IMG/VR virus record: IMGVR_UViG_3300023110_001773
Span: 101,638 to 165,637 of that record
Reading direction: 5' to 3' (one strand)
Length of the DNA: 64,000 nt
From: a virus
The notes under the pieces were generated by a model. That model saw nothing but the letters and a program-made list of their open reading frames with translations, was not told the DNA's origin and searched no databases. A program made the position numbers and the translations under genes. The stretch's first letter is position 1; the number at the start of each line of letters is the position of its first letter. Below, piece by piece: positions 17,155 through 42,273 of this stretch.

Positions 17155-17724
17155 ATGGCAAACCCATTTGAACAAATAAGAGCCAATTCTAACGATCAAT
17201 CAAAATCGTATAATTGGTACATGAACCAAGTTAGGAACGTTGCGAGAGGAATTAATAATCCTAGTACAGCGATGTCTTCTAGCATTGCAAAAAGACAAGG
17301 GTCATATGACATCGGTTCTATGTATTTGTTTAGATATGATGCAAAACACAAAAGTAAGTTGCCATACTTTGACGCATTTCCTCTGTGTCTACCATTTGAA
17401 CCAACCAACGATGGTTTCTGGGGAATGAATTTACATTATCTACCATATCTTTTACGAGCAAAACTGTTGGGCAAATTACTGGAAACCATGAACGATCAGA
17501 AACTCACATCACAGTCTCAGATGTCATACAATTGGGATTTGTTGAGTAGTGCGGCCAGATTTCCAGAAGTAAAACCCTGTGTAAAAAGATATCTGAATAC
17601 TCAGATGCGTAGTTCTTTTTACAGGATCGATCCATTGGATTGGAAGGCTGCAATCTTTTTGCCAGTAGAAGATTTCAATACTAGTAAGAGCAAAGTATTT
17701 TCAGATTCTAGAGGAATAATGTAA
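17155..17724 (+). CDS. conserved T4-like virion protein, gp2-type DNA end protector candidate
   Basis: The product has 189 residues from the ATG at 17155. A GTG at 17149 overlaps the gene 4 stop and is less likely. The conserved core is MYLFRYDAKHKSKLPYFDAF, then GMNLHYLPYLLRAKLLGKL, and the C-terminus ends FLPVEDFNTSKSKVFSDSRG. This family accompanies gene 4 in many T4-like marine phages and is often named DNA end protector. In T4, gene 2 is next to gene 4. I infer that role from position and recollection, without alignment. The stop overlaps the ATG of the next gene. Confidence 0.6.
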   Translation: MANPFEQIRANSNDQSKSYNWYMNQVRNVARGINNPSTAMSSSIAKRQGSYDIGSMYLFRYDAKHKSKLPYFDAFPLCLPFEPTNDGFWGMNLHYLPYLLRAKLLGKLLETMNDQKLTSQSQMSYNWDLLSSAARFPEVKPCVKRYLNTQMRSSFYRIDPLDWKAAIFLPVEDFNTSKSKVFSDSRGIM

Positions 17725-18320
17725 TGAGTCTTAGTAGATTCTTGGGTCACGTTCAAGGAAACGACTTAGCAAGAGCAAACAGATTTGAAGTAGAAATTTA
17801 TGGGCCTGGTAGCGGAAGGTTGCCATCACTATTATGTGAAGAAGCTCAGATACCAGGCTTGCAAGCACTGTGGTCTCCAACAAAAATAGGAATGTGGACT
17901 GAAAACAGAGTTCACGGCATGGAATTTTTTGGGGAATCAGCTGCATTCACTTTCTATTGCGACACGGACTGGAATGTAAGATCGTATTTTGAAAACTGGA
18001 TGCAACAAGTAGCATCTTTTGAAACCAAAGAACCAAAATATCAAGACACCTATGTTGGGGAAGTTAAAGTAAAAGTACTCAACAGAAGAGACAGTGAAAG
18101 AAAATCTTGGACTATGAAAGAAGCCTTTCCAAGACTATTGAATATTATTCCAGTAGCTCAGGGTGGCGATGGCATTGTAAGAGTGACAGTAACGTTTGCA
18201 TTTAGAAGTTGGGAAGCAGGCGGCGGTGGCGGTTCAAGTATTGCGGATATTTACGACACGATCACTGGTGGTGGAAACGTGAGAGAGAAAATGAGAGATG
18301 TATTGGACAAAGTTTTTTAA
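17724..18320 (+). CDS. gp54: tail tube initiator/tube protein, gp54/gp19 type
   Basis: The product has 198 residues. The N-terminal part (DLARANRFEVEIYGPGS) and the pair of beta segments around ENRVHGMEFF and FTFYCDTDWNVRSYFENWMQ, with IVRVTVTFAFRSWEAGG near the end, follow the tube fold shared by gp19 and gp54. T4 gp54 has ENRLSYETDWNY, then VNSV and FDVTFAYRVMQAG at the matching places. With 198 residues it lies between gp19 (163) and gp54 (320). A short Gly-rich and helical tail follows residue 160. Proximity to gp48 and the tape-measure cluster favours gp54. Confidence 0.65.
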   Translation: MSLSRFLGHVQGNDLARANRFEVEIYGPGSGRLPSLLCEEAQIPGLQALWSPTKIGMWTENRVHGMEFFGESAAFTFYCDTDWNVRSYFENWMQQVASFETKEPKYQDTYVGEVKVKVLNRRDSERKSWTMKEAFPRLLNIIPVAQGGDGIVRVTVTFAFRSWEAGGGGGSSIADIYDTITGGGNVREKMRDVLDKVF

Positions 18321-18340
18321 TTAATTGGAGTTTTTAAATT

Positions 18341-19036
18341 ATGGGATTACCTATTACAGAATACCCGCTAGTTGAGGTTTATGTTTATTCAGAAAAAAAG
18401 AAGGTCAATTTCAGACCATTTTTAGTAAAAGAAGAAAAACTATTAGTATTTGCAGCTGAAACTGGTGAGGCCATGGAAATGATAAAGGCCTCCCAGCAGA
18501 TTGTCACCAACTGTTCTTTTGGAAAAGTTAAGGGTGATGAGATACCAATTTTTGACATGCAAAATATATTTCTTGAACTTAGAAAAGCTTCTATAGGAAC
18601 AGATATTGAAGCGAGGTTTGGATGCGGTCATTGCGAAAAGAAAACCAATGTTACAATTGATTTAAACAGGTTTAAACTAAAAGAAAGTGAAGATCATTCT
18701 CCAATTGTAAAACTAACAGATGAAATGTCTGTCGAAATGAGGTATCCGAAATCGGAAGAACTCAAAGAGATTGCAGGCAAAGAATCCGATGCAGATATCT
18801 ATGAAGTATCATCAAGGTGTATAGAGAAAATTTTTATTAAAGATGAAGTCTATGAAGAAATTAGTGACGGGGATAAAAGAGAATTCATTGACAACATGCC
18901 CCCAACACAGTTTCAAAGTATTAGACAATTCTTTGAGACAATGCCGGTATTAGAAAACAAAATAGAATTTATTTGTAATGGTTGCGGTAGAGAAAATTAT
19001 GCATTTATGAATGGGTACATGGATTTTTTCGTATAA
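18341..19036 (+). CDS. gp26: baseplate/tail assembly chaperone gp26 (T4_baseplate family), unshifted product
   Basis: The product has 231 residues (T4 gp26: 208). It begins with a beta-rich part (LVEVYVYSEKKKVNFRPFLV), then helices. Two Cys pairs (CGHC near residue 94, CNGCG near 214) could hold zinc. The family is the T4 base plate protein family, found in front of tape-measure genes and acting like lambda gpG. GGAG lies upstream. The final codons GAT TTT TTC contain a slippery heptamer, and the -1 frame stays open for another 59 codons, so this is probably the short of two products. Confidence 0.8.
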   Translation: MGLPITEYPLVEVYVYSEKKKVNFRPFLVKEEKLLVFAAETGEAMEMIKASQQIVTNCSFGKVKGDEIPIFDMQNIFLELRKASIGTDIEARFGCGHCEKKTNVTIDLNRFKLKESEDHSPIVKLTDEMSVEMRYPKSEELKEIAGKESDADIYEVSSRCIEKIFIKDEVYEEISDGDKREFIDNMPPTQFQSIRQFFETMPVLENKIEFICNGCGRENYAFMNGYMDFFV

Positions 19037-19209
19037 ACCTCTTCCATGAAAATCTCGAAAACTATTTCAAAACCAACTTTTTATTGATGCAAGAACATAA
19101 ATATAGTTTAACAGAGATTGAGAATTGGATGCCTTGGGAGAGGACAGTTTACATTTCCATGCTAGTTCAACACTTAAAAAAGAAATCAGAAAAATCAAAG
19201 AGTCGATAA
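19030..19209 (+). CDS. gpT-like extension of gp26 made by -1 ribosomal frameshift
   Basis: T_TTT_TTC at 19024-19030 is a canonical slippery site in the zero frame of gp26, two codons before its stop. A -1 shift continues without a stop through 59 codons (RINLFHENLENYFKTNFLLM, then SLTEIENWMPWERTVYISML and a basic tail). It ends at TAA 19207-19209, directly at the next ATG. The fused protein would have 289 residues. SLTEIENWMPWE-type sequences follow gp26 in related phages. As in lambda G/GT, the extension should contact the tape measure encoded next. Without the shift, an internal ATG at 19087 would give only 40 residues. Confidence 0.75.
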   Translation, partial: RINLFHENLENYFKTNFLLMQEHKYSLTEIENWMPWERTVYISMLVQHLKKKSEKSKSR

Positions 19210-20925
19210 ATGGCGCCATTTTTTACTAGTTTGTTGGGATTTGGGTCGAGAACAATCGGCGGCCTTGGCCGTGCAATAATGAATCCCATAAAGAAGGTTG
19301 GGGGTCTGTTAGGAAACGCTGGCAAGGCTGGTGCTTATTATGGACTAGGAAATGCACTTTTTGGTGGCAACAACAACGAAGAACAAATTCAATCCGGCGG
19401 TTCTGGTGGCGGTGAAATGGGTGGATTCGGTGGAACCGTATCCGGCGCAACACCAGTAAGTACCGCAGCCTCTGCAACAAGTGCTTTGTCAGATGCAGAT
19501 AGTTCTGATCCAGTCGTAAGACAATTACAGGACATCGAAAGAGTCTTAGTATCAATCAAAGGTGATACATCCCAATTTGTTGGGGGAATGTCAAGAGCCG
19601 CACAAGCTGGCCCAAATAAAAATGCGTTGAGAAATATGTTCGGCCGCAGTGGTGGTGGTATTGGCCCCGCAGCTGCTGGTGGACTTGGACTCGCTTCACT
19701 TTTTGCATTGGGTATGGCCGGCAAGATGGGAGACAATGACAAAGGTGATACCGAGGCAGGAACTCAAGAAAGATTCGATGCCACCATAGGAAATGAATTA
19801 GAAGATTTCGGCGCCACCGCTGGGATGAAGGCGGCAGGAATAGCAGCTGGTGCAGCTGGAGAAAGAGCATCAAAGGCAGCTATAGAAGCAGGAGCAAACA
19901 GAGCAGGAAAAATGGCCGCCTCTACTATAGACACAAGTACTGGCGGGGTGAAATTTGATAGAAATGGTACTGCAATTAATAAAGCTGGAGATGAAGTACA
20001 TGGAGCAGCAAAAGAATCTGCAAGACAATCAATGGAAAAACTCCAGAAAGAAGCAGCAGAAGCAGCTTCAGAAACAGCTGCAAAAAATCCACAAATAGCA
20101 GCGAAGATAACAGCATCTATCGCCAAAAACCTTGGTCAAACTGGTGCGAAAGTTTTACCATTTGTAGGAGCAGGGTTTAACCTAATTTTTGCAATGGAAA
20201 AGGCTATAGCAGGGGATTGGAAAGGAGCTGCATTAGAAACTGCTGGTATGATTCCTTTTGCCGGAATAGGTGCTGACGTTGGTTCCTTGGTAAGAGATGT
20301 CTATAAAGACGTATATGATGTATTCCCAGAAGATGACTCAGAGAATTATGAGGAACGATTCCCAGAATTATTTAACATGGTTACTAGTGCTATTGCTGAC
20401 TTGATGTCCTCTAACATGGATAATGCTGTAAATGATCTAGAAGCAGTAGAGGCTAGACCAGAAGTTTCAGATCGTATGACTGGTAGACGGCGAGGACGAG
20501 CTCTAGAGAGACAAAGATCATGGGACAACAAATATGGAAATACACACAATGCAGATGGTAGTGTAAAAGCAGAACTATTAGAAAGTGCGGTGGAAGCAAG
20601 AATAGATACCAATCCTGATCAAACTACTAGTATGATGGATGCAGCAATCGAAACTGGACAAGAAGCTCTTGGTGGATTGGGAGTTGATGTTCCCCTAAAT
20701 GATTCTGCTAGAGTAGAGGATATGACTACATCAAGTTTTGAACAGACCAATGCATCATCTAATGATGCTCTAGTAGCTGCTCTTGGTGGAATGCCTGGGG
20801 CAACAGCTCCAGTACAAGGCGGACAGGGAGAAATCTCTGTACATGTGTCTTCTCCAAAAACAAGTTTCCCACAGTCAAATTCTGAATTGACTTGGATAAA
20901 CAGCAACGCATCTGGATTTGTTTAA
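19210..20925 (+). CDS. tail tape-measure/hub protein candidate (gp29 position)
   Basis: The product has 571 residues (T4 gp29: 590). It is Ala/Gly-rich with long helical stretches (AAGIAAGAAGERASKAAIEA; QKEAAEAASETAAKNPQI) and hydrophobic patches (LGLASLFALGM; VLPFVGAGFNLIFAME). It begins right after the frameshifted chaperone, the usual place of a tape measure. No peptidase or lysozyme motif is visible. It ends 4 bp inside the convergent radical SAM gene. Function is inferred from size, composition and position. Confidence 0.6.
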   Translation: MAPFFTSLLGFGSRTIGGLGRAIMNPIKKVGGLLGNAGKAGAYYGLGNALFGGNNNEEQIQSGGSGGGEMGGFGGTVSGATPVSTAASATSALSDADSSDPVVRQLQDIERVLVSIKGDTSQFVGGMSRAAQAGPNKNALRNMFGRSGGGIGPAAAGGLGLASLFALGMAGKMGDNDKGDTEAGTQERFDATIGNELEDFGATAGMKAAGIAAGAAGERASKAAIEAGANRAGKMAASTIDTSTGGVKFDRNGTAINKAGDEVHGAAKESARQSMEKLQKEAAEAASETAAKNPQIAAKITASIAKNLGQTGAKVLPFVGAGFNLIFAMEKAIAGDWKGAALETAGMIPFAGIGADVGSLVRDVYKDVYDVFPEDDSENYEERFPELFNMVTSAIADLMSSNMDNAVNDLEAVEARPEVSDRMTGRRRGRALERQRSWDNKYGNTHNADGSVKAELLESAVEARIDTNPDQTTSMMDAAIETGQEALGGLGVDVPLNDSARVEDMTTSSFEQTNASSNDALVAALGGMPGATAPVQGGQGEISVHVSSPKTSFPQSNSELTWINSNASGFV

Positions 20926-22427
20926 GATAAAAGTTTTTTAGTAATATACTCATCGACATGACCGAGTATATATTTACTTCTTCTCTCCATGTGAACTTCA
21001 GTTGCAAAGTCTTCCCACTTGACACTGGGATCAATAAAGAACTTATCATACATGAATGGGTCTATTAGATTCTTTGCCTGATACTGTGAGAACTCTTCTG
21101 CACAAAACTTCATAACCTCGTGTAGATTGGTGCAATCATTTTCCCACGGCAGATAGTATCCAGATTCTTTGACATAGTTGTATAGGGTCTCGTAGTATGG
21201 ATTTCTACTCTTTGACCAATCAATCGGATCATCTGGAAACTCTGTTCTGCGGTATCCAAACTTACTCCAATCACGATCAAACTCAGAGTTGTGATTCAAT
21301 GTCTCTACATTGTTCTGCAAGTCTTTGATCATCAGTACATTCATGTGATAACTGTTTCTGTTCCAGTACTGCGATAACCACTTGCCAGTGTCCCTCAGAT
21401 CGTCCACAGTCTCGTGTGGGAGTCCGGCGATAAGAGAGATATGTCCTTTGTAGAATCCAGCGTTCTCTCTGAAATACTCATCGACCTCTATCAAACCTTC
21501 TTTGATTCTACCACTGTCCATACCTTTGCCGATGGACTTGGCAGACTCATGTTTCATAGACTCGACACCATAGAAGTGTGAGGTGATACCCATCTTGATT
21601 AGATTGTCCCAATCTTGTTTGCGAGACACAATAAGATCAGCTCTAATATAGGCAGTCATCTTGGGTGTAAAGGGAAGTTTTTCTATGACGTTGGCAAACT
21701 TCTCAATCTTCTGTGAACTATCGTTGAAGGTTTCATCCAGAACAATATAATGTTCTGTACCCCACTTGTCATAGTTTTCCAACATCTCATCATATACACT
21801 CTGTGCTGTGCGTGAGTAATCACCCTTAACTCCGAGAACAGGGAAACTACAGAACTTGCATTTGAACTTGCATCCACGGGCAAACTCTAGTAACAGAATT
21901 TCTCTGGGGTTGATAAAGTCTGTATCCTTGTAAGACACCGTGAGATCGTCTTTCGGAAAGGACTTGTAGTTGACGTAACAGTTTATTACACGATTGGTAT
22001 GGATAGGTTCTGGCCCACCTTTGAAGTGATCTATGAGTGCAAGTATTGCATTCTCACCGTAACCGTAAACATACCAATCCATCTCCAATTCTTTCATAGA
22101 GTTGTTTTGACTGCCTGCAACAAGGGGAATGCGTGGATAAGTTTCTCGTAACCATTTTACGAGACCGATAACGCTTGGACTATTTAAAAAGAAGGTAGAA
22201 CCAAATCCGAAAAATAAAAATTCATCATCAACTTTACGAGAAATATATTTTTTTAATTGATCCAAACTCCATCTTTGAACGTAGTCAATGACTTCGACAT
22301 CATATCCGTGTTGACGTAAAAAGGTGCTTATTTTGTGGCCGCCAGATGAACGCCTGATACTGATCTTGGAACTATCAAAGTCTAATCCCAAATCTTCAAG
22401 TTGTCCACCAAAAATAATACTATGCAA
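20922..22427 (-). CDS. B12-binding-domain radical SAM protein
   Basis: The product has 501 residues. An N-terminal Rossmann-like part (RRSSGGHKISTFLRQHGYDV; FFGFGSTFFLNS) resembles the cobalamin-binding domain of this family. It is followed by the radical SAM cluster motif C186-x3-C190-x2-C193 in GCKFKCKFCSFP. Later IRADLIV and GVESM strands fit the TIM barrel. The frame opens with TTG (22427); no ATG lies near and no clear Shine-Dalgarno is seen. It sits right behind the gp32 terminator and converges on the tape-measure gene. It may be reached only by read-through. Substrate unknown. Confidence 0.85.
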   Translation of the reverse strand: MHSIIFGGQLEDLGLDFDSSKISIRRSSGGHKISTFLRQHGYDVEVIDYVQRWSLDQLKKYISRKVDDEFLFFGFGSTFFLNSPSVIGLVKWLRETYPRIPLVAGSQNNSMKELEMDWYVYGYGENAILALIDHFKGGPEPIHTNRVINCYVNYKSFPKDDLTVSYKDTDFINPREILLLEFARGCKFKCKFCSFPVLGVKGDYSRTAQSVYDEMLENYDKWGTEHYIVLDETFNDSSQKIEKFANVIEKLPFTPKMTAYIRADLIVSRKQDWDNLIKMGITSHFYGVESMKHESAKSIGKGMDSGRIKEGLIEVDEYFRENAGFYKGHISLIAGLPHETVDDLRDTGKWLSQYWNRNSYHMNVLMIKDLQNNVETLNHNSEFDRDWSKFGYRRTEFPDDPIDWSKSRNPYYETLYNYVKESGYYLPWENDCTNLHEVMKFCAEEFSQYQAKNLIDPFMYDKFFIDPSVKWEDFATEVHMERRSKYILGHVDEYITKKLLS

Positions 22428-28250: not shown

Positions 28251-29102
28251 TTATACTTTTAAACAATCAGCTAAATGCTCTCCCCACTCTATGTGAGCCT
28301 GTAAACACGGATGTCCTCTGGGCATTCGCTTGTCTCCATGTTTATCATTATATTCAGAGAAAACCTTATCCGTTATCATATGTCTATTTATCTCTTTTTC
28401 GATAAAAAGAAGATTATCTTTGTATTCATAATCAAGGTGTTTAAGTTGTTCATGTTTCTTCAAATAAACTTTTTCAAAATATTGTACATTAATTCTTTCA
28501 AGACACTCAACAAAAATAACAGGTATATTATTCCTGTTAGCAATATACAAAATGTCTCTGAGATTATTCATATACTCATAAAAATGAATCCATGAGTGTC
28601 TTTCTCTGAAATATTTTAAAGCAAACTCATGATCACCCCCTCTATCGTGATGGGTGGGAACGACTCTATTGAAAGCACATCCCCTATATCTTTCGTCTAT
28701 GTTACTCCTGCCAATTTCTGCCCAATGTTCTAGTGAATGAAAACCAACTTCTCGAAAAAACCCAGTAGTTCCAAACATACAGAGATGTGTATCAGAAATT
28801 TTTTCATGAATTACATCATTGAAAAATTGTGATCGCATATTATCAATAGAGTTGCCCCTTTGACCTCTATTGTAAACATTAGTTATTCCCAATTTATTAC
28901 AAAGGTGTTGTGGATACGCAAGTTGTTTTTCTATCTTTTCGTGTTTTTGACTCAATAACTCACGTTGGTCTGAGTCTTCGCATTTTCCAATTAGGGGCAA
29001 AAATTCTTCATTTGCTAGTTCTTCTCCAGCAGTAAAAGAACATCCATAAAAATGAATACCATTTATCTTTATTACGTCATCCAAGTATTTTACGGGGTAC
29101 AC
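28251..29102 (-). CDS. SGNH-type hydrolase (class A)
   Basis: The product has 283 residues. Block I FYGCSFTAGEEL places the nucleophile Ser at residue 22. RGQRGNSIDNM fits the Gly/Asn blocks, and the C-terminal MPRGHPCLQAHIEWG can supply the catalytic His. SGNH enzymes remove acyl groups from or hydrolyse esters of polysaccharides and lipids, or act as O-acyltransferases. It overlaps the carbamoyltransferase gene by 13 bp and ends the modification cluster together with a small ORF. The substrate is not visible. Confidence 0.75.
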   Translation of the reverse strand: MYPVKYLDDVIKINGIHFYGCSFTAGEELANEEFLPLIGKCEDSDQRELLSQKHEKIEKQLAYPQHLCNKLGITNVYNRGQRGNSIDNMRSQFFNDVIHEKISDTHLCMFGTTGFFREVGFHSLEHWAEIGRSNIDERYRGCAFNRVVPTHHDRGGDHEFALKYFRERHSWIHFYEYMNNLRDILYIANRNNIPVIFVECLERINVQYFEKVYLKKHEQLKHLDYEYKDNLLFIEKEINRHMITDKVFSEYNDKHGDKRMPRGHPCLQAHIEWGEHLADCLKV

Positions 29103-30520
29103 ACTTTTACTCCATAGAAATTTTCAAATACATCAGCATCAATTCTATTATTTACAATTGGTTTACCCTTTATGTTCAAACTAGTATTGAGCAACATTGG
29201 ACATCCAGTTTCCTCATACCACTTAGTAAGCAACACATATAATTCTGGATGATGTGCATAACTTACTGTCTGCACTCTACTAGTACCATCCTTATGTACT
29301 ATTGCTGGATATTTTTCTGGTTCTTTACACCTAACAACTTCTTGCATGTATGGAGAATTAAAAAAGACATCAACATCGAAGTGGTGTTGTGCATCACACT
29401 GTCTAATCACTGGAGCAAAAGGTCTAAACTCCTGTCGTCTTTTTATTGAGTTTACTTTATCTTTCATATCTTGGCCTCTAGGATCAGCCAACAGAGACCG
29501 ATTACCCAAAGCACGAGGGCCAAATTCAGCTCTACCAGAAGCTACTCCGACCATCCCAGATGTCATCAATTCATGAAGTACTGCATCGACTGGATATTCT
29601 CCTTTGATGTCGTGTCCCAAATAGGCAGTTTTAAAATCAACTCTCTGTTTTGTACCAGCAAGAACTGCTCCAAGAGAAGACCCAGCATCGCCTGGATTGG
29701 GCATTATCCAATATTTTCTAAAAAAATCTGGTAACAATCTATTGGCAAGACAGTTTAGAGCACATCCACCCATAAAAACCAAATCTCTTTTGCGAGTTAG
29801 TTCTGCTGTTAAATGTAAAAGAGCACCCAACCATTTTTCATATACGGATTGCACTCCAGCAGCAACATCAAAATAGTCTTCTGGTTCTAATTCTGGTCTC
29901 CACCATTTTACTCCACGATGAAATGGTGTTTTGTTTGCAAGTAAATCTGATATTTCCTTTGAAAATCTATATTTGTCTCCATAGGCAGACATTCCCATTA
30001 GAATATATTCATCCTCATTTGCCTTCAATCCAACCCTATCAGTAAAAGCAGAGTAGAACAAACCGAGAGAATTTGGATATTTCCTAGACCAAACTAATTT
30101 GTCATTATCCCAGATGGAAGTAGTAACCCACTCACCAATTGCATCAATAACAAGAGTAGCACAATCATCAAATGGTCTAGTGTAATACCCAGCTGCAAAA
30201 TGACTACGGTGATGATTCCCCCACTTTATTTTGCACGTTGGTTGATATTTTAATTTGTCAAAATAAGACCTTGGATTTACCCAAGGATTTGGTTGTCTGG
30301 AATACAACCTTCTAGTAGCTTTGAGTATGGGGTTCTCATACCAGTACATTTTATCTGGTTCCCCATACTGCAAAGCATCATTCAACAAATTATCATTTAA
30401 ATATTTGTCATTCTTGTAACCAGAGTATCTTTCTGCATGGCTAGCAAAAACTATCTCCCCATCTTTTATGACAGAAAGAGCTGCGTCATGATAACCAGCA
30501 CTGATCCCCCAATTAATCAT
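29090..30520 (-). CDS. NodU/CmcH-family carbamoyltransferase
   Basis: The product has 476 residues. The N-terminal ASKHA-like start MINWGISAGYHDAALSVIKD, the His cluster GNHHRSHFAAGYY (H103, H104, H107), MGGCALNCLANRLL and the C-terminal GRAEFGPRALGNRSLLADPR are the family signature. These enzymes pass a carbamoyl group from carbamoyl phosphate, through carbamoyl-adenylate, to a hydroxyl of a sugar or small molecule. It is known from several marine phages. The start overlaps the stop of a 40-residue ORF. Confidence 0.93.
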   Translation of the reverse strand: MINWGISAGYHDAALSVIKDGEIVFASHAERYSGYKNDKYLNDNLLNDALQYGEPDKMYWYENPILKATRRLYSRQPNPWVNPRSYFDKLKYQPTCKIKWGNHHRSHFAAGYYTRPFDDCATLVIDAIGEWVTTSIWDNDKLVWSRKYPNSLGLFYSAFTDRVGLKANEDEYILMGMSAYGDKYRFSKEISDLLANKTPFHRGVKWWRPELEPEDYFDVAAGVQSVYEKWLGALLHLTAELTRKRDLVFMGGCALNCLANRLLPDFFRKYWIMPNPGDAGSSLGAVLAGTKQRVDFKTAYLGHDIKGEYPVDAVLHELMTSGMVGVASGRAEFGPRALGNRSLLADPRGQDMKDKVNSIKRRQEFRPFAPVIRQCDAQHHFDVDVFFNSPYMQEVVRCKEPEKYPAIVHKDGTSRVQTVSYAHHPELYVLLTKWYEETGCPMLLNTSLNIKGKPIVNNRIDADVFENFYGVKVCTP

Positions 30521-30635
30521 AGATAAATGGGTCTCTCTCCCTAATTTCTTTCATTTTCTTTTTTATTCTTCGGCGCATTTTCCAATCGTCAAACTTTTGT
30601 TTTATACCGAGAAAAAACTTTTTAATTTTTTTCAT
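30513..30635 (-). CDS. 40-residue basic protein between SGNH and carbamoyltransferase genes
   Basis: The product is a Lys/Arg-rich helix (MKKIKKFFLGIKQKFDDWKM, then RRRIKKKMKEIRERD). It starts by overlapping the preceding stop (30622) and ends overlapping the next ATG (30520), so it fills the only gap in a run of coupled genes. That makes it likely to be translated. No family recognised. Confidence 0.6.
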   Translation of the reverse strand: MKKIKKFFLGIKQKFDDWKMRRRIKKKMKEIRERDPFIYD

Positions 30636-31452
30636 ATCCCAGTTCTCCTAAAATTGTTTTTGTGATAAATTCGTTTTCTTGTTCGCCTGGATGCAGTAAA
30701 TCTCTAGCACGATATTTCAAACCCCCCAAATGAAGTCTTCCAGCTGGATTGAGGTATTTCTCAGTAATAAAGACCTCATCAAAACAATAAAATTTGGAAC
30801 CGTTTCTAGAACATACCGTTTCCAAAGCATCCATATTTTTTTGCATATTATAATTTAGATTTTCCTCATTGAGACACCATTGTGCATAAAAATCTCCGAA
30901 GTCGGAATTTAAAATTTTTGTTTCATCGGATTTTGCTGGAAGAAAATTGTGATAAAATGATATATCTCCATTTCCATTAGAAATTTTAATTTCCTTTCTC
31001 GATTTAGATACTACAAAACATATAACAAGTTTTGGTTTTAATATTGGTATCCAAAAAGACCCCAATCTATAACAAGTATCATTTGATCTGCCTGGTACAG
31101 AAAGGTTACATAAATTCATTCCCAGTTTTTTGGATATCGAATATGCAAAAGTTTTTTCAAGGGGCAACCCAATACCAGTAGTAATACTGCATCCTAGAAA
31201 AACTATATTATTATCAGAGTCATAAAAAGAAGGAGACCGAAAACCATACTCGTTAATTTCATAGGTTATATCAACGTTCTCCCATCTTTTCATAATTTCT
31301 GGGTATTTTAAAAAGTTTTCTTCATACAAACTTTTTTCGTCAGTGGGAAACCATTCTAATACGGTATTAAAATGTAGATCACCAGCAGCGCCTATGCCGG
31401 ACAACCCAAATGCAGTATTATGTTCTGTAGGAACACATTTTATTTTTTGCAT
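30622..31452 (-). CDS. SGNH-type hydrolase (class A)
   Basis: The product has 276 residues. Block I IVFLGCSITTGIGL has the Ser at residue 89. SVPGRSNDTCYRL supplies the Gly/Asn blocks, and the C-terminal D251-L-L-H254-PG is the Asp-His pair. About 80 N-terminal residues precede the core, with NEYGFRSPSF. It resembles the other SGNH gene of this operon in its GCS nucleophile block. It overlaps the UDP-sugar dehydrogenase gene by 13 bp. It probably edits acyl groups on the product of the cluster. Confidence 0.8.
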   Translation of the reverse strand: MQKIKCVPTEHNTAFGLSGIGAAGDLHFNTVLEWFPTDEKSLYEENFLKYPEIMKRWENVDITYEINEYGFRSPSFYDSDNNIVFLGCSITTGIGLPLEKTFAYSISKKLGMNLCNLSVPGRSNDTCYRLGSFWIPILKPKLVICFVVSKSRKEIKISNGNGDISFYHNFLPAKSDETKILNSDFGDFYAQWCLNEENLNYNMQKNMDALETVCSRNGSKFYCFDEVFITEKYLNPAGRLHLGGLKYRARDLLHPGEQENEFITKTILGELGYEKN

Positions 31453-32600
31453 GACCTAGTATTACCATAATGGACTACAATATGGGATTTAGTTTTTGAT
31501 TCATACGTTCTCCAAGGATCAAAAATAACTACGCCTGGGACTAATTCTTCTTCATTAATTTCATCGGACTCATGCACTCTTACAATAACATCTGCTTGAT
31601 CTATGTCTTTGGTTACATTAGTATTAAATTTTTCGACATAATGTTGCACCAAAAGACTATAACTACCATTTGTATAATCTACATGTGGTTTGTAGGAATC
31701 GGAAGTGAAATAAACTTCATACCCGTGTTCACAAATTGCTCTAGCCATATTTTCTGCTTGAACATCTCTGGCTTTCATAATCTCTGCAAAAAGATCATAT
31801 CCCAAGGATAGATTGTCAGACATGAATCTAAGTGCAATGTTGTCTCTGGGATGACATGCACCACCATCACCCATCCCAGGCTTCATGTACCCAGGCCCCA
31901 TAATCCTCTGAGTACTATCTCTCAAAGCATTTGCAACAACATCCACATCAATATTACCCTGTTGTTCTGCAACATCTTGTATCATGTTTACCAAACCGAT
32001 CTTCGCACTGATAAACGTATTGTAAAATACTTTGATGCACTCGCACTCATCCCATGTACCTATTACATATCGTGGGTCGTTTTCCATAATAGACTCATAA
32101 AACTCTTTGAGTTCTTTTGCATCACCAGTTTCAGTACCATCTTCAGTGCCGATCATAACCATCTCTGGATTCACCATATCCCATGCAACAGTTCCCATGG
32201 CAATAAGGTAGGGATTATATACAAATCGAGTGTTTGTGACTAGAGGTACAAATTCTCTGCGTACAGTGCCAGGCAAAACAGTACTGATAAGAACAAGCAA
32301 CTGATCCTTGTTCATATGATTATTTGCTTCTTCTATAACATGTTGAACAATCCCATATCCAAAGTCTTTTGGTGGTAAGTGATATGTTGGAGTCTCTCCG
32401 CCATATTCTGGATCGTGTGGGGTGGGGACAGCGACAAAAACAATATCTCTATCTGCAACAGTATCTTTGATCGTTGGTCGCATATCAATATCGGTGTCAA
32501 TCGTTGCAACATCATAAGCTACAACATCGTGTCCTTTCTCTGCAATCACCTCTCCACAGGGTTGACCCAGTTTGCCAAATCCAATAAAACCAATTTTCAT
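31440..32600 (-). CDS. UDP-glucose/GDP-mannose dehydrogenase, full length
   Basis: The product has 386 residues from the ATG at 32600. That ATG overlaps the upstream stop as ATGA; the ATG at 32624 lies deeper in the previous gene. The N-terminal Rossmann fold is KIGFIGFGKLGQPCGEVI. The catalytic Cys is in GMGDGGACHPRDN, and a C-terminal UDP-binding domain is present (ADVIVRVHESDEI; VVIFDPWRTYE). It oxidises the C6 hydroxyl of a nucleotide sugar to a uronic acid. A perfect sigma70-like promoter lies about 80 bp upstream, inside the previous gene. Confidence 0.85.
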   Translation of the reverse strand: MKIGFIGFGKLGQPCGEVIAEKGHDVVAYDVATIDTDIDMRPTIKDTVADRDIVFVAVPTPHDPEYGGETPTYHLPPKDFGYGIVQHVIEEANNHMNKDQLLVLISTVLPGTVRREFVPLVTNTRFVYNPYLIAMGTVAWDMVNPEMVMIGTEDGTETGDAKELKEFYESIMENDPRYVIGTWDECECIKVFYNTFISAKIGLVNMIQDVAEQQGNIDVDVVANALRDSTQRIMGPGYMKPGMGDGGACHPRDNIALRFMSDNLSLGYDLFAEIMKARDVQAENMARAICEHGYEVYFTSDSYKPHVDYTNGSYSLLVQHYVEKFNTNVTKDIDQADVIVRVHESDEINEEELVPGVVIFDPWRTYESKTKSHIVVHYGNTRSCKK

Positions 32601-33628
32601 AATGTTTTCAAATCCTCTATCCATTGTTTGTTTTTTGTGATTAATTCTATCATTAGATTACGATTATTTTCCAACCTATTATATATGGAAGAATAAATTC
32701 TGTCAAGTTCTTCTATGGGAGTAAGGCACACCTTTTTTAAATCCTTTACCAAGTTGTCAGTTCTTTTATCTCTATCAACATCAAGTCCAACATTGGGAAA
32801 CAAATCTTCAAAAGTATCGAATCCAAATTCTCTTAGTTTTGGATATAAGTTTCTATCCCCCAAAGCAAGAAAAGGTCTTAATCCTATAATTGGTTTAAAA
32901 ATCTTTTCGCTCAGAAAAACATCTGTATGAGCAGCACTTTCCGTAACAACATTGACAAAGTGGGAGTTCCAATGCGTTGGGTCTCCCAGAGAAATTATAT
33001 CATTTGCTATATGTTTGTCAGATAAAACTTCGTGGTCATAAAACATATTTACCAGTTCTGGTGGTCTATTTTCTTCAAGAATAATTGGGTGTTCAAAATT
33101 GTATCCGGCGTCTCTTTGTAATACAGATATGTTTCCTTTTTTATAAATTGTTTCTTGTTCAAAAATCTTATTTAACAAGTGCCTTCTATGATCATTGGGT
33201 TTGTTATTTAAACACATAAAATGATATTGTAAATTTGGTTTTGATGTGTAGCATTCATCAAAAAAATATTTTTTGTAAAAATCTATAAATTCAACCCAAA
33301 AACTGAAATAGTGTCCCTCAGAAGTGTTTCCAATATGAGTGCAATCAAATCTATATTGTAGAAATATATGAGCAGCAGTACACACTGGTTCGCAGTGTGT
33401 ATTCATCCAATCCATACCAGAATATAGAAATGCTCTTTTTTTGTCTGTAGTAATTTGCCAATCAACAAATTTTTGAAATGTTATTGGATCATTTATCCAA
33501 GTGGTATCAATAAGACAAACATCATCTGGTATAAGTTCAAGAATCCTTTTGAAAAAAACCCTGTCAAAATCTGTAATCTGGTTGTTGCCAGATTTTATTG
33601 ATGGCCCATTCGTAAAATAATCAGTCAT
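32597..33628 (-). CDS. glycosyltransferase-like protein, TEK-motif paralog 1
   Basis: The product has 343 residues. The C-terminal half has VTESAAHTDVFLSEKIFKPI (228-247), then RPFLALG and FGFDTFEDLF. The same pattern (V-T-E, T/S-E-K-x-F/Y-x-P/C, P-F/L) occurs in two more genes of this operon. It recalls the V-T-E-K segment of GT10-type fucosyltransferases, where it binds the nucleotide sugar. The N-terminal half has no motif I know. It is coupled by overlaps to its neighbours. Function as a glycosyltransferase is inferred. Confidence 0.6.
   Translation of the reverse strand: MTDYFTNGPSIKSGNNQITDFDRVFFKRILELIPDDVCLIDTTWINDPITFQKFVDWQITTDKKRAFLYSGMDWMNTHCEPVCTAAHIFLQYRFDCTHIGNTSEGHYFSFWVEFIDFYKKYFFDECYTSKPNLQYHFMCLNNKPNDHRRHLLNKIFEQETIYKKGNISVLQRDAGYNFEHPIILEENRPPELVNMFYDHEVLSDKHIANDIISLGDPTHWNSHFVNVVTESAAHTDVFLSEKIFKPIIGLRPFLALGDRNLYPKLREFGFDTFEDLFPNVGLDVDRDKRTDNLVKDLKKVCLTPIEELDRIYSSIYNRLENNRNLMIELITKNKQWIEDLKTL
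32678..32706 (-). promoter_or_regulatory. consensus sigma70 promoter inside the long operon
   Basis: TTGACA (32701-32706), 17-bp spacer, TATAAT (32678-32683): a perfect match, within the coding sequence of the TEK-motif gene and about 80 bp before the UDP-sugar dehydrogenase start. Confidence 0.65.
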
Positions 33629-35330
33629 ATAATCTTAGTTCATTAAAAATATTTCTATGTTCAGCGATACGAACAGAAGAACAGTTTTTAAAATGTTCGT
33701 AGTTTCTATAGAGTTTAGGTCTGACCGACTCGTACAGTCTAAATTTTTCTGCATGGGTTAGTGTTTTCCATCTTTCTAAATTTCTAATAATATGTGACAT
33801 TCTTTTCTTCGGGTTTAAAATAGAATCATACGTCTCATCAAACATTTCTGGAAATGTTTCGTACCCCATATCTCTGAGGTGTTCTAATGTGCCTGGTGAA
33901 CCCACTACCATGAATGGAATTCTATAAGCAAAACACTTATAAATCTTCTCTGTAATCTGCAAACAATTACTATCATCTAAACCGAAAAGAGTTTCACTAA
34001 CTAAAGCAAAAAATGATTTTCTGTAGTGATCCAACGTGATCCTTCTATCATCTTTGGTCACCGAGTCCGTATTGATGTCAATAGATATAATATCATTTTT
34101 ATGCCAAAATTTATAGAAAAATTCTCGTTGTGTTTCAAATTCCATGATCGTGTTGGGCGCAGTCCACTCGTTAGAAACCCAATCTTCTATAGTATCTTCC
34201 CTGTATTCAGATTTAGTATAAAAATATTTGAACTTCCAATAAAGTTCTGGATGTTCTTCTGGGTTCTCGTCTCTGGCTAAAAAACTAATGTAAGAGTTAT
34301 TATTGTCATATCCCAATCTAAATAATTCAGAGACAATTACTGGTCTATGGGGTCTTACTCTTGCATTCAGGCAGATCAAATCTCTTTCTTTTTCCGTGGA
34401 TGGGGGGACATCTGCCATAACTTCATCAAGTCTGATATCTCTATATTCGTCTGCCCATTGCAATCTAGGCCAGCCGGGTTTATTGGTATCTTGTTTAGAT
34501 TTTTTAACTTGTTCTGGTAAATCTTCAAACTCGATGTAAGCATCTCGATGTTTGGAACAATGATAATCACCAAAACTTTCAACAGATTTGTACTTATCAA
34601 AGTTGTGGGAAGGATTGAATCTCCAACAAGTTCTGGAAACATATTGTTTGAAGTAATGTTCATGGAAAAAATCAATGCCAAAACATTTTTTAAATTCAAA
34701 TTCTATTTCTGGATTGGCCCTCTTCCACCTGTCAAAGTTTTTTTGTACATTAAAATCACCGTAGATAAAATAATGTACTCCTCCACTTAGGTCATAATCT
34801 ACAATTTTTTTAACAAGTCTAGTCATCCAAGGATTATCGTTGACAACATCTCTCAAAGATGCCATCCCAAATCCCTCGTGCGGAAACCAGAAAACCATTG
34901 CCATCTTTCTTTCTCTAACCATCTGCAAGGCATGATGATTACATCCACAGAAAATGTCTTCTACGTTCACATGTACTTGTACAATTTCTATGAAATAAAG
35001 GTTGTCTCTGTCAACGTAAGTATCATTCCAATCAGAAATATCTTTCATTTCAAATGGAATGCCCATTCTTTCATAAAGGTCAACAATATCAGTAGGGCCG
35101 AAACAAACTTTATTATGTGGGTCTGATGAACTATTTTTTTGTGGATATTCGCCTTTAGCCAACTCCCTTATAGGGGGCAGTTTATCAAACCAGAGGATAG
35201 GGGGTTGGTTAGAAATTTTTCTGGGATTAGTTTTAAGTACAGATATCTCTTTTCTAAGAGATTGTACTTCATCCAGAACTTTTTGTAATAAAGTCTGGAT
35301 ATTCCCAAGGTCTGTTTCTGATGCCGCCAT
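33621..35330 (-). CDS. glycosyltransferase-like protein with coiled-coil N-terminus, TEK-motif paralog 2
   Basis: The product has 569 residues. A coiled coil at about 8-33 (IQTLLQKVLDEVQSLRKEIS) overlaps the end of the upstream gene by 62 bp. Two parts follow. The last 200 residues repeat the operon's shared pattern: VSETLFGLDDSNCLQITEKI, then IPFMVVGSPG and GYETFPEMFDETYDSI. The middle part has HEGFGMASLRDV and LICLNARVRPHRP segments. It is probably a nucleotide-sugar-dependent transferase of the same family as its two paralogs. The start codon is uncertain. Confidence 0.6.
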   Translation of the reverse strand: MAASETDLGNIQTLLQKVLDEVQSLRKEISVLKTNPRKISNQPPILWFDKLPPIRELAKGEYPQKNSSSDPHNKVCFGPTDIVDLYERMGIPFEMKDISDWNDTYVDRDNLYFIEIVQVHVNVEDIFCGCNHHALQMVRERKMAMVFWFPHEGFGMASLRDVVNDNPWMTRLVKKIVDYDLSGGVHYFIYGDFNVQKNFDRWKRANPEIEFEFKKCFGIDFFHEHYFKQYVSRTCWRFNPSHNFDKYKSVESFGDYHCSKHRDAYIEFEDLPEQVKKSKQDTNKPGWPRLQWADEYRDIRLDEVMADVPPSTEKERDLICLNARVRPHRPVIVSELFRLGYDNNNSYISFLARDENPEEHPELYWKFKYFYTKSEYREDTIEDWVSNEWTAPNTIMEFETQREFFYKFWHKNDIISIDINTDSVTKDDRRITLDHYRKSFFALVSETLFGLDDSNCLQITEKIYKCFAYRIPFMVVGSPGTLEHLRDMGYETFPEMFDETYDSILNPKKRMSHIIRNLERWKTLTHAEKFRLYESVRPKLYRNYEHFKNCSSVRIAEHRNIFNELRLYD

Positions 35331-36435
35331 CTACTAAAATCTCATAAAATTCTGGAAAAGTTTTTTTGTAGTCTTCTTCTCTTACTGAGTCAAGTCTTTC
35401 TGTCACCGCAATGAAACCCAAGTCTAACTTATCGTGTTCGGCCTCTTGCATCATAAAGTTTATAATGGCATCGGTGTTGGGAATATTTATAATTTTCTCA
35501 CGAACTTTATCTTTGCTGGAATCTGGCATATTACGAACACAATATTGTCTGGGGAAGTGCAACAAATTGAAATAAATGTTATTACCATCAAATGTTTCTA
35601 CAAAATCATTCAAATAATATACGTTAAACAAACTAACAGTATGACATATTTGTATGTTGAGAAATTTATGGGATTTGAAATGATTGAAGTTTTCCCAAAC
35701 CTCATCCCACACAGCACCACTGCGAATATACTCAAATTGTTCTCCAACGCCATCTATACTGAACATGATTTCACAGTGTTTAAATTCTTTCCACAGATCA
35801 AATATTTCTTTGGGGGGTCTAATTGTTCCGTTTGTATTGTAATGTATGGCAATGTTCTTGGCATAACCAGAATCAACTGCATGTCGCAACAGATCAAAAT
35901 GTTGATCTATCATAAAAGGTTCTCCACCAGTAAAATCCATATGTTCTACTGTCGGCATAATTTTATCAAGTTCTTCCCAGACGCCAGGATTCTTTTTCAC
36001 CCACAAAGCATCTTTGTTATCAAGCACTCTTCCGTACATTTTAATTTCATCTGCCTTCCAACTGGAAGAGTTTACACTTCCACAAGATCGACATTTTAGA
36101 TTACACAATGTACCAAACTTTAAATCAAGATAAACTGGGGGAGTTATATCTTTTCCTATTTTGTCTACATGATTAGAAAACCTGTCGATATCTTGCAATC
36201 TTTTTGACTTGTATCCAGCATCTTCGTTCTGCCAACACATAGCACAACCAGAAGGCATTTTTCCATCAAGAAATTCTTGTCGCAGATTATTGTACTTTTC
36301 GCCACTCCAAATGTCCATCAAGGATTCTTCTTTGAGATTCCCCATTGGTTCACCACGATATAAACAACATGGTTTGGCAGTACCTTCTGTAGTAAACTCG
36401 GTGTGTATCCAAGGCAGTAAACAAATTTTATCCAC
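35269..36435 (-). CDS. twitch-domain radical SAM enzyme, subgroup A (1)
   Basis: The product has 388 residues. An N-terminal twitch part holds C5, C23-C24, C64 and C67 (CLLPWIHTEF; AKPCCLYRGE; GCAMCWQNED), which could bind an auxiliary iron-sulfur cluster. The radical SAM motif C111-x3-C115-x2-C118 is in GTLCNLKCRSCGS. MDFTGGEPF is the SAM-binding GGEP motif, and MFSIDGVGE follows. The C-terminus has the cluster-wide TFPE motif (YKKTFPEFYEIL). Seven such genes occur in this operon. Each overlaps its neighbours by a few bases. The substrate is unknown. Confidence 0.9.
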   Translation of the reverse strand: MDKICLLPWIHTEFTTEGTAKPCCLYRGEPMGNLKEESLMDIWSGEKYNNLRQEFLDGKMPSGCAMCWQNEDAGYKSKRLQDIDRFSNHVDKIGKDITPPVYLDLKFGTLCNLKCRSCGSVNSSSWKADEIKMYGRVLDNKDALWVKKNPGVWEELDKIMPTVEHMDFTGGEPFMIDQHFDLLRHAVDSGYAKNIAIHYNTNGTIRPPKEIFDLWKEFKHCEIMFSIDGVGEQFEYIRSGAVWDEVWENFNHFKSHKFLNIQICHTVSLFNVYYLNDFVETFDGNNIYFNLLHFPRQYCVRNMPDSSKDKVREKIINIPNTDAIINFMMQEAEHDKLDLGFIAVTERLDSVREEDYKKTFPEFYEILVDGGIRNRPWEYPDFITKSSG

Positions 36436-37672
36436 GCAAAACCTCTAGTTCTGGGAAGGTCTTAAAAAAGTCTTCGTTTCTAATAATATCTAAGGTTTCC
36501 ATTTTATGTAAAAATGGTTTTATCAAATCTTGTCTATCTTCTGAATTCATGAATGTCATCAGAGATTCAAAATCATTTGCAACAGCATTATGGCCATATT
36601 TCTTCAACATGTCAACGTGTATTCTATATTGAGTTGTCAACATTTTCTTGGTTTCTATCGGAAGAATTTGTAAACTTAGGAGAGGGGGTTCCATAACAGG
36701 ATTCACATGAAACTTATCTAAACCAGATATAAATTCTTGATCAAATAAGGCTTGATGAAACTTGATGCAATGAAATGCATTTTGAACACTGACCGTACAG
36801 TTTACATAAAAGTCAACATGAGGACAAAGTTCTTTCATCTTTTCTCTGTTCTGAACAAACTGATCCCACTTGAAACCACTGCGAATGAGTTCACCCTGTT
36901 CTTTCATTCCGTCAATACTAGCACCAACACTGACGTTTTTGAATTTCGGCCAATATTCAAGAACATGCAAGTCCTTGTATCGCATCTCACTGAAATTCGT
37001 GTTGTATCTAATCTGCACATCGTGTCTACCCATCTCATCAAGTTTTTTCAAGATGCGATAGTGTTCTTCCATGATCAATGGTTCACCACCAGCAAAGTAA
37101 ATGATTTCTACATCTTCAAAGTAAGGTTGTATGTCTTCCCACAAATCAAAGTGTACTTCTCTGGGAATATCATCTGGCAAAAATTTTCTGCCAGTTTCCA
37201 TCTCTGCAATTTTCTTAGTATCACTGTACCATCCCGTACTCAACTGAGGCCCACAACTTCTGCACTTAAAATTGCAAACGTTTGAAAACCGAAAGTCCCA
37301 GTAAGACAATCTAATCTCGTCAACGGAACCATCATCGTTGGTAGATTCTATCAAATCACTATGTTGATTAAAATCTCTGTTTGAACTCATTCTAAAAGAG
37401 TGAGCGCCGCAGTCTTCTTGTATGTAACACCTCTGGCAACTTTCGGGTCTTTTGTTATCCAACATCTCAAGACGAATTTTTTTCATCTTGTCATCGTTGA
37501 ATATTTCTTGAAGACTTTTTTCGTTTAGATTGCCTACACGGTGTTCCATTGGAGAAATGCAACATGGGTATACTGACCCGTTTGGCCATGTATGCAAATG
37601 TATCCAAGGTATAATACAAAGATTGTCGTTCTTTATCTTTGTCTTTGTGGGATTATTTTTTCCTTTACTCAT
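36428..37672 (-). CDS. twitch-domain radical SAM enzyme, subgroup A (2)
   Basis: The product has 414 residues. Twitch cysteines are in NLCIIPWIHLHTWPNG, VYPCCISPME and ESCQRCYIQED. The cluster motif is C133-x3-C137-x2-C140 (SNVCNFKCRSCG). IIYFAGGEPL and VSVGASIDGMKEQ match its neighbour. It ends FFKTFPELEVL. Identity to the adjacent copies looks moderate, with indels, so duplication is not recent. Overlaps of 8 bp on each side indicate coupled translation. Confidence 0.9.
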   Translation of the reverse strand: MSKGKNNPTKTKIKNDNLCIIPWIHLHTWPNGSVYPCCISPMEHRVGNLNEKSLQEIFNDDKMKKIRLEMLDNKRPESCQRCYIQEDCGAHSFRMSSNRDFNQHSDLIESTNDDGSVDEIRLSYWDFRFSNVCNFKCRSCGPQLSTGWYSDTKKIAEMETGRKFLPDDIPREVHFDLWEDIQPYFEDVEIIYFAGGEPLIMEEHYRILKKLDEMGRHDVQIRYNTNFSEMRYKDLHVLEYWPKFKNVSVGASIDGMKEQGELIRSGFKWDQFVQNREKMKELCPHVDFYVNCTVSVQNAFHCIKFHQALFDQEFISGLDKFHVNPVMEPPLLSLQILPIETKKMLTTQYRIHVDMLKKYGHNAVANDFESLMTFMNSEDRQDLIKPFLHKMETLDIIRNEDFFKTFPELEVLRG

Positions 37673-38933
37673 AATCTTTTATCAATTCATAAAGTTCTGG
37701 AAAAGTTTTTTCAAAGGACTGTTTTCTCAACTCGTCCATTGATCTGGTTTTTTCAAAAAACATTTTCATGTTTCCTGATACTCCGCCGCCCCATCTATTT
37801 TCACCATCGACACTGAGATAATTTTTTATATCGTTGTATCCCTGATATCCTTCAAGTCTCTGCAAAACAACTTTTTGAACTTCTTTTGGCAAAACCCTGC
37901 AATCAAAGTGTTCTGGATCATTCACAAAGTTATGACTAATATGCAAAGATGAATCTTCTAGGGGGTGACCCCTCAGAGGAACCTTATCCTTGAAAAATTC
38001 ATAGAACTCTGGTACATAGTAGACATTATATGTAGATACCGTCTGCAAGATATTGTAATTAATGTTTTTATATCTAGCAGTCATACTCATCATCCAAGTG
38101 ACAAACTCTAAAACCTTTTCCCACTTGGTAAATGTTCTGATATATTCATTCCTGTCGCCAACATCATCAATGGACAACATAAACTGAACGTGTTTAAAAT
38201 TCTTCCAAATTTCTTCGTAGTCCTTGTTCACCACGGTGCAATTTGTCGAATAAACTATTTCAACATTTTTGGCCAATCCCATATCAACCAGAGTTGACAG
38301 AAAATCCATATGTTTATCAACAATGAATGGTTCGCCACCATTGATATACAATACTTTGAGTTTGTCGCATCTTGTTATCAGTTTATCCCAAAAGCCCTGA
38401 TCCAAAGGCCAGTTGAAATTTTTCTGACTCATCATCTCTGGTAGTGCCGGACGTTCTGGGTAAATTACATCCCAATCTTTCATCCACCGAGAGCTAGAAT
38501 ATGGATTGCATGTACGACACTGTACATTGCAGTGGTTACCCAAACGCAATTCAACAAATTCATAATTGACTTCTTTAAGTGTTCCATCTTCGTTTGTGAT
38601 ACTCTTAGCGTATTCAACATCCATAGGGACTCTACGACTTTCATAGTATCGTTTACTCTTGACACCGACACTCTCCAAATCCCAGCACTTTCTACACTCA
38701 ACGGGTTGTTCTCCGTTTAACATTTTTTTCCTGACTTTGCTAAAACTATCAGAATTGGTAATCTTAGAAAAGTCATCAACATTCTGTAGTGTGATCAGTT
38801 TTCTTCCATGTCCATAGTCGTTGAAAGCTTGAGAAATGCCATCCTGTTGTTCTGATTCGCAACATAGGGTGCAAACACCGTGTGGGTGTGTTGCTAAGTG
38901 ATTCCACGGAAGTGGACAAAAAGTTTTACTCAC
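37665..38933 (-). CDS. twitch-domain radical SAM enzyme, subgroup A (3)
   Basis: The product has 422 residues. N-terminal TFCPLPWNHLATHPHGVCTL with the following CC pair, then VECRKCWDLE, make up the twitch cysteines. The cluster motif is C135-x3-C139-x2-C142 (GNHCNVQCRTCNP). VLYINGGEPF and FMLSIDDVGDRNEY follow. The end is FEKTFPELYELIKD. It lies between the sulfotransferase-like gene and another radical SAM gene. The N-terminal insert at 27-62 is longer than in the other members. Confidence 0.9.
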   Translation of the reverse strand: MSKTFCPLPWNHLATHPHGVCTLCCESEQQDGISQAFNDYGHGRKLITLQNVDDFSKITNSDSFSKVRKKMLNGEQPVECRKCWDLESVGVKSKRYYESRRVPMDVEYAKSITNEDGTLKEVNYEFVELRLGNHCNVQCRTCNPYSSSRWMKDWDVIYPERPALPEMMSQKNFNWPLDQGFWDKLITRCDKLKVLYINGGEPFIVDKHMDFLSTLVDMGLAKNVEIVYSTNCTVVNKDYEEIWKNFKHVQFMLSIDDVGDRNEYIRTFTKWEKVLEFVTWMMSMTARYKNINYNILQTVSTYNVYYVPEFYEFFKDKVPLRGHPLEDSSLHISHNFVNDPEHFDCRVLPKEVQKVVLQRLEGYQGYNDIKNYLSVDGENRWGGGVSGNMKMFFEKTRSMDELRKQSFEKTFPELYELIKDYE

Positions 38934-39451
38934 AGGAACATACCTTTTACATCAATATTAACATTTACATCTGGTTGATCTAAATCCAATCTTCTAGTAT
39001 ATTTTTCCCCGTCATTGCGATCCTCCAACCAAACAAGTTTTCCACCAAATTCTTTATATATTTTTGACTGCCACTCCAGACACTTCAGTATTACTTTAAA
39101 AGAGTATTCCAATGAAACTTGCATATCCGCATCCCAATCTGGTTCTGTAAGCTTTTGCCACGGATGCCAATCATTTGAAATTCCACAATAGGCATGTGAC
39201 TTAATTTGATTGGAAACATCCTCTCTCAGAGTGTAGTATATTTCATCAGCATTTTCTAGATAATCTTTTTTAAATTGTTCGTAATATCTATCATAATGAA
39301 ACTGATCTGGAATTACTTTATATACGTCCAACTCTGGTGTGGGTGGTCTATAATCACAAACGGTGTTGTGCAACCATTCATCACCATCTCCTCCGAGGAG
39401 AAGAGAAAAGGTAGTAGAACCAGTTCTATAATTTGCAATTATTAATTTCAT
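38930..39451 (-). CDS. sulfotransferase-like protein
   Basis: The product has 173 residues. The N-terminal MKLIIANYRTGSTTFSLLLG has the R-T-G-S-T loop that binds the 5' phosphosulfate of PAPS. A later YTLREDVSNQIKSHAY segment fits the 3'-phosphate-binding region (R-x7-S-like). It is shorter than typical sulfotransferases (about 250 or more). It sits between two radical SAM genes, with 4-bp overlaps on both sides. Transfer of sulfate to the cluster product is an inference. Confidence 0.65.
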   Translation of the reverse strand: MKLIIANYRTGSTTFSLLLGGDGDEWLHNTVCDYRPPTPELDVYKVIPDQFHYDRYYEQFKKDYLENADEIYYTLREDVSNQIKSHAYCGISNDWHPWQKLTEPDWDADMQVSLEYSFKVILKCLEWQSKIYKEFGGKLVWLEDRNDGEKYTRRLDLDQPDVNVNIDVKGMFL

Positions 39452-40749: not shown

Positions 40750-41740
40750 GAATCAAACCCTCTGGAATTTCCATTTCTTTAAATTTTTCATGTATCAAAA
40801 AAACCGATTCAATCATAGTTGGCCATGGTCTGGGGATGTGTTTCGGAAATGGAGGAGGCCCAGTATCAGTTTTTGCAAAATTGAAAGCCCATTCAAAATT
40901 TTTCAATCTTATTTCTCTAGTAATATCCGATAATTCAGAAACTTCATATGTATTAATCAAATTATCAAGTTGTTCTATTATCATTTCACCACGTTTTTCG
41001 TTATCAATAACCCTATCGAAAGAGTAATCAATTTCTGGGTGTGGCGTATATCCACACATAAACAACCTTTGGTAAGTTTTTGGTGCTGCATAAATCAAAG
41101 GAATCTTTCCATATACAATTGGCCTAAAAGTTTTCTCTGTTAAAAAAATTACATTTTCATCTGTTTCGGTAACAAAATCAATCAAAACTCTCGGATAAAA
41201 TTCTGGGCACAATTCCCTCTCTGAATACCACTTAACAATTTTATAAACGTTTAATTTTTCTCCAGCATGATACTTACAATACTCATTAATAATAGGAGAT
41301 ATTTTTTTCCACAAAACATCTCTGTGGGGCCTTCTCCTAGCCCACATAGTAATAAATGAAATATCATGGTCAGAATTTAAATTTTTTTCTATGTCTTTCC
41401 AAAAAATCTCTTCAGAAATCTGGTAGTCTTTTCCTTGATGTAACATATAGTACCAAAAAACATACATCCACCACCAGTAATATACTCTGGCGTCAATCAG
41501 AGAAAATACTTTACATGGCATTTTGTTTACATCTAGGAATTTTATCTCGTTGTCATTTGGGTCTCTATAAGCTATTTCAATCTCTTGTGGCATATAAATA
41601 TTTACAATACTATCACGAGCTTCTCCAGTAGCCAACTTATATCCATTGATTAGGGTTTGTCCGTATACTGGGTACATAACCCCGTCAATGAACATACAAT
41701 ATCCTGCTGGATCAGCAGTACCCTCACCTTCAAACATCAT
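40739..41740 (-). CDS. glycosyltransferase-like protein, TEK-motif paralog 3
   Basis: The product has 333 residues. DFVTETDENVIFLTEKTFRP, then GKIPLIYAAPKTYQRLFMCG and DRVIDNEKRGEMII, is the same ordered pattern as in the paralogs at 32597-33628 and 33621-35330. The N-terminal part has FIDGVMYPVYGQTLINGYKL, unlike the others. Separation of the three paralogs by radical SAM genes suggests alternating enzyme steps. The enzymatic role is inferred from the V-T-E / T-E-K motif. Confidence 0.6.
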   Translation of the reverse strand: MMFEGEGTADPAGYCMFIDGVMYPVYGQTLINGYKLATGEARDSIVNIYMPQEIEIAYRDPNDNEIKFLDVNKMPCKVFSLIDARVYYWWWMYVFWYYMLHQGKDYQISEEIFWKDIEKNLNSDHDISFITMWARRRPHRDVLWKKISPIINEYCKYHAGEKLNVYKIVKWYSERELCPEFYPRVLIDFVTETDENVIFLTEKTFRPIVYGKIPLIYAAPKTYQRLFMCGYTPHPEIDYSFDRVIDNEKRGEMIIEQLDNLINTYEVSELSDITREIRLKNFEWAFNFAKTDTGPPPFPKHIPRPWPTMIESVFLIHEKFKEMEIPEGLILER

Positions 41741-42272: not shown

Positions 42273-42273
42273 T

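Follow-up and report, generated by a model that had tools for sequence, protein, structure and literature searches.

A predicted −1 frameshift joins gp26- and gp51-type reading frames into a putative two-length tail assembly chaperone gene in a T4-like phage

The window, by which we mean the whole stretch of 64,000 nucleotides analyzed here, covers positions 101638–165637 of a 165,637-base virus record; the features of the locus lie on its plus strand. A gp26-type open reading frame of 231 amino acids, the putative short form of a tail assembly chaperone (TAC-N; 18341..19036), runs from an ATG at 18341 to a TAA at 19034–19036, with a GGAG (18327..18330) about 10 nt 5′ of the ATG as its probable ribosome binding site. 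Immediately 5′ is a tail tube or tube-initiator-like gene (17724..18320; phrog_45 tail tube, 5.6e-30), annotated as tail tube initiator (gp54) in phiM9, Va3, and HTVC008M. The last gp26 codons read GAT TTT TTC GTA TAA, so that the canonical T_TTT_TTC which the initial annotation had placed near the gp26 stop is indeed found there, in phase at 19024..19030 and one sense codon ahead of the stop, its A-site codon TTC being residue 230 of gp26. Beyond this predicted −1 frameshift site, a slipped ribosome would open the −1 frame with CGT (19030–19032), read CGT ATA AAC and onward, and continue for 59 codons to a TAA at 19207–19209. This extension (19030..19209) would form a gp51-type C-terminal domain (TAC-C) and give a predicted gp26–gp51 fusion of 289 amino acids. 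It had been claimed that the −1 frame stays open for these 59 codons to the exact start of the tape measure candidate and has a family-like sequence, and both statements hold: the ATG of the candidate, at 19210, abuts the TAA, and SLTEIENWMPWERTVY is found in the −1 frame. The candidate itself (19210..20925, 571 amino acids) gave no family match as a tape measure and is named for its position: homologous ORF segments occupy the same place at related loci, and the HTVC008M counterpart is annotated as a putative tail tape measure. As read from the window, two overlapping frames, the second at −1, lie directly 5′ of this candidate.

Elsewhere in the window, about seven radical-SAM/SPASM-like proteins are encoded in a row on the minus strand (35269–46443), several of them matching PF04055 and PF13186, and another radical SAM protein, whose B12-binding match is weak, stands apart at 20922–22427; this density of radical SAM proteins is unusual for a T4-like phage. 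Near these genes, the minus strand encodes a carbamoyltransferase (PF16861/PF02543) and a UDP-glucose/GDP-mannose dehydrogenase-like protein (29090–32624), and on the plus strand two proteins without Pfam matches are found at 50866–54106, one of which is very rich in Asn/Thr repeats. A relative, HTVC008M, has curli genes elsewhere.

Profile searches assign the upstream ORF to the T4 gp26 family, with a match that covers most of the protein (PF12322 T4_baseplate, 9.9e-52, residues 15–230; phrog_150 baseplate hub, 3.8e-55), and the −1 frame to the T4 gp51 family (phrog_634 “baseplate hub assembly catalyst,” 6.2e-25, residues 1–59). A further, weak match of the −1 frame is to the C-terminal end of phrog_150, which is the end of longer gp26 proteins. 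Relatives of gp26 were found by tblastn in 628 phage records and relatives of gp51 in 644; judged by the baseplate wedge protein gp6, the nearest cultured phages are the Pelagibacter phages HTVC008M and Mosig and the Methylophilales phage Melnitz. An AlphaFold2 model of gp26 (pLDDT 85.8) has viral baseplate hub proteins as its fold matches. Searches of the PDB with gp26, by sequence and by fold, gave no significant match, and no lambda-type chaperone fold emerged from the model, the HK97 TAC structure 2ob9 appearing only at E = 3.4 (TM 0.21/0.37).

To compare the site across relatives, we used seven viral-contig scans together with a set of annotated phage records. The window and the relatives from these sources amount to 344 sequences, of which 343 have both parts. 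All of these 343 loci show the gp51 frame at −1 to that of gp26 and carry T_TTT_TTN, in phase, ahead of the gp26 stop (N being C in 304, T in 36, G in 2, and A in 1), so that loss of the heptamer, which would have spoken against the initial annotation, was seen in none of the relatives. The set spans the Kyanoviridae, KVP40-like Vibrio phages, Aeromonas phage Ahp1, Sinorhizobium phage phiM9, and Pseudomonas phage Astolliot, and the Pelagibacter phages HTVC008M and Mosig fit the pattern as well (GAT TTT TTC in Mosig). After clustering of the 343 loci to 104 representatives, xxT TTT was observed at the site in all 104 clusters versus 47 predicted from synonymous codon usage, with a log10 P of −39 if the clusters are taken as independent, which they are not, since the test ignores phylogeny. 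This neglect is partly offset by a control within the same gene that shares the phylogeny of the site: at the conserved Phe-Phe of the FFETMP motif (TTC TTT in the window, 18929..18934, without a slippery heptamer), the heptamer occurs in 1 of 55 clusters, versus 55 of 55 at the slip site. TTTTTTC itself is common in the AT-rich genome (72 copies forward and 36 reverse in the whole 165.6 kb), and the evidence therefore rests on position, phase, and conservation. The heptamer with an open −1 frame at the end of gp26 is judged not to be a product of chance: when the 84 window ORFs of at least 100 amino acids were scanned for an in-phase X_XXY_YYZ near the stop and more than 10 open −1 codons beyond it, only three passed, gp26 among them. 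The other two, on the minus strand with stops near 28253 and 29092, have the heptamers TTTAAAA and AAATTTC and a long open −1 frame; each has a possible start at most 13 nt from its stop, and both have the appearance of normal neighboring or overlapping genes.

The run of six T's is conserved (seven or eight in some relatives), and slippage of RNA polymerase on this run, in place of slippage of the ribosome, would also join the two frames. Six T's are short for transcriptional slippage, however, and the run always stands in the T_TTT_TTN phase required for tandem tRNA slippage, whereas at the control Phe-Phe of gp26 an out-of-phase TTT TTT occurs in 20 of 55 clusters. The fixed phase of the T run disfavors the transcriptional explanation, and we consider it very improbable.

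A further question is whether the second frame is made as a separate small protein, started within the −1 frame and coupled to termination of gp26. Such a reading agrees with the annotation of gp51 as a separate CDS in S-PM2, phiM9, HTVC008M, Va3, and others, and with stop–start overlaps such as TAATG in some relatives. In the window, however, the earliest possible starts in the −1 frame are a TTG at 19084 and an ATG at 19087, both preceded by about 20 codons of conserved −1 sequence, and no recognizable ribosome binding site was seen for either on reading the sequence. The initial annotation had named a conserved start of the second frame as evidence against a frameshift, and none was found among the relatives: the start position differs among clusters, and 42 of the 104 have no possible start codon before codon 19. 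For the stretch preceding the first possible start, which in most loci lies 3′ of the gp26 stop, single-base codon differences in the window clade are synonymous in 85% of cases in the −1 frame versus 4% and 13% in the two alternative frames; for the full set of clusters the values are 73% versus 15% and 16%. These figures indicate that the −1 frame is under purifying selection 5′ of its first possible start codon, and this synonymous excess implies that selection on the −1 protein begins shortly past the slip site, which is evidence against a start of its own for gp51. Since selection precedes any start codon, and since a separate gp51 would leave the invariant heptamer unexplained, we reject this reading as highly unlikely; the second frame appears to be selected as an extension that has no independent start. 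The same selection disfavors the suggestion that the heptamer is a conserved but incidental codon choice and gp51 a decaying or nonfunctional remnant, which we regard as scarcely credible: no locus lacks the −1 frame, and gp51 is the better conserved of the two proteins, with 60–67% identity to cyanophages (best records) versus about 35% for gp26 in tblastn. For T4, gp51 is described as essential for assembly in a passage of PMC3004832. A programmed −1 frameshift, as first proposed for this locus, is thus supported by the heptamer and its phase at 343 of 343 loci and by selection ahead of any start.

The elements that may stimulate such a frameshift are not distributed evenly. Outside the window clade, a 5′ element resembling a Shine–Dalgarno (SD) sequence is stronger than in synonymous shuffles in 76 of 87 clusters, and the best SD-like 8-mer mostly starts 17 nt 5′ of the heptamer. 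A 3′ hairpin is seen across 64 cyanophage clusters (−8.7 vs. −3.6 kcal/mol, mean z −2.5), and 11 related cyanophage sites share a 12-pair consensus hairpin in which two pairs are changed on both sides; a consensus fold of 16 cyanophage sites from mixed clades gave no structure, probably reflecting different hairpins in each clade. The SD-like and hairpin elements of the cyanophages sit at the positions of ribosomal stimulators, which supports ribosomal frameshifting and again speaks against polymerase slippage. The 17 clusters of the window clade have no SD-like element (anti-SD −3.56 vs. −3.13 in shuffles), and neither a 3′ hairpin (mean z 0.08) nor a consensus structure was found in up to about 150 nt scanned past the heptamer against synonymous controls. 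This difference between the clades is a computed one. One reading, which we offer tentatively and at somewhat less than even odds, is that T4-like phages have one ancient frameshift gene under two control designs, the cyanophages using an SD-like element together with a 3′ hairpin and the window clade a bare heptamer. Were this true, the host ribosome and tRNA-Phe, or else some unrecognized signal, would determine the efficiency in the window clade, and the ratio of short to long form could differ.

Taken together, it is very probable from these comparisons that gp26 and the following −1 frame constitute a single gene, from which −1 frameshifting yields a tail assembly chaperone in two lengths. 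In the scheme that we infer for the slippage, its frequency, and the action of the product as a chaperone in this phage, the majority of ribosomes would read the 231-amino acid short form (gp26, TAC-N) and terminate at 19034, whereas a minority, with tRNA-Phe on the TTT and TTC at 19025–19030, would slip back by one base, the tRNAs pairing again on TTT TTT, and translation would go on in the −1 frame to yield the 289-amino acid long form (gp26–gp51, TAC-NC). If the protein works as lambda gpG/gpGT does, the tape measure protein, whose gene lies just downstream, would be coated by a large number of short copies and a few long ones, with the gp51 part recruiting tail tube subunits.

In 2022, Vladimirov and colleagues reportedly found frameshifting to be conserved in several T4-like groups, with T4 using genes 26 and 51, and are said to have recognized gp26 as the TAC-N and gp51 as the TAC-C part. 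Passages of two later papers (PMC10885494; PMC12846349) cite Vladimirov, Gautam, and Davidson (2022, Virology 566:9–15) for the identification of the T4-like tail assembly chaperone genes; one of them (PMC12846349) also credits that study with poly-T slippery sequences in the TAC-N genes of T4-like phages, and the other (PMC10885494) mentions that some T4-like phages have a short and a fused gene in place of frameshifting. A 2016 review still named T4, in the passage concerned, as the exception to tail chaperones made by frameshifting (PMC5009743). A tail chaperone made by frameshifting in a T4-like phage is therefore not new in kind, and the window is a well-supported further case; the difference in stimulators between the clades may be a small addition beyond Vladimirov et al. 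(2022), and the window clade, made up of uncultured marine phages, may lie outside the groups covered in that study. With such cases, gp26/gp51 of many marine T4-like phages would be grouped with the tail chaperones that most long-tailed phages make by frameshifting. Public records miss the joined frame: none of the 18 annotated relatives joins gp26 and gp51, and 5 of the 18 omit the second frame.

Among known systems, phage lambda gpG/gpGT is an apt parallel in architecture. The lambda slippery heptamer is G_GGA_AAG; lambda differs from the window in this heptamer, no sequence similarity was found between the two, and the window belongs to a phage with a T4-type contractile tail. The initial annotation had described the locus as the lambda G/GT arrangement in a T4-like phage, outside the usual description of such phages; the architecture stands but the novelty does not, given that passages of PMC10885494 and PMC12846349 refer to a description of the T4-like frameshift in 2022. 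HK97 TAC shows no significant fold match with the window gp26. In Pseudomonas phage Adele (Vandenendeviridae/Andersonviridae), a conserved poly-T −1 frameshift between TAC-N and TAC-C lies 5′ of the tape measure gene, according to a section of PMC12846349, which gives the slippery motif of this group, another phage group than that of the window, as GTTTTT. T4 has homologous gp26 and gp51 domains, as does the window, but unlike the window it has them in two divergent genes and has no heptamer in gp26, which ends in GAG TTC TTT GAG (GAGTTCTTTGAG); the gp26 of Pectobacterium phage POP12 likewise ends without the heptamer. With the profile of the fusion, the match to T4 gp26 stops at the junction and those to the gp51 proteins of T4 and POP12 extend beyond it in both directions, which indicates that T4 and POP12 carry the long form as a continuous N+C gene (gp51). 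In POP12 and an Enterobacter Pseudotevenvirus, the long gp51 lies 5′ of gp26 on the same strand with a slight overlap, in contrast to the divergent arrangement in T4. Cyanophages with gp26/gp51 of the S-PM2 type (Kyanoviridae) have the upstream SD-like element and the downstream hairpin, both of which are absent from the window clade, whereas the heptamer, its phase, and the order of the domains are the same in the two.
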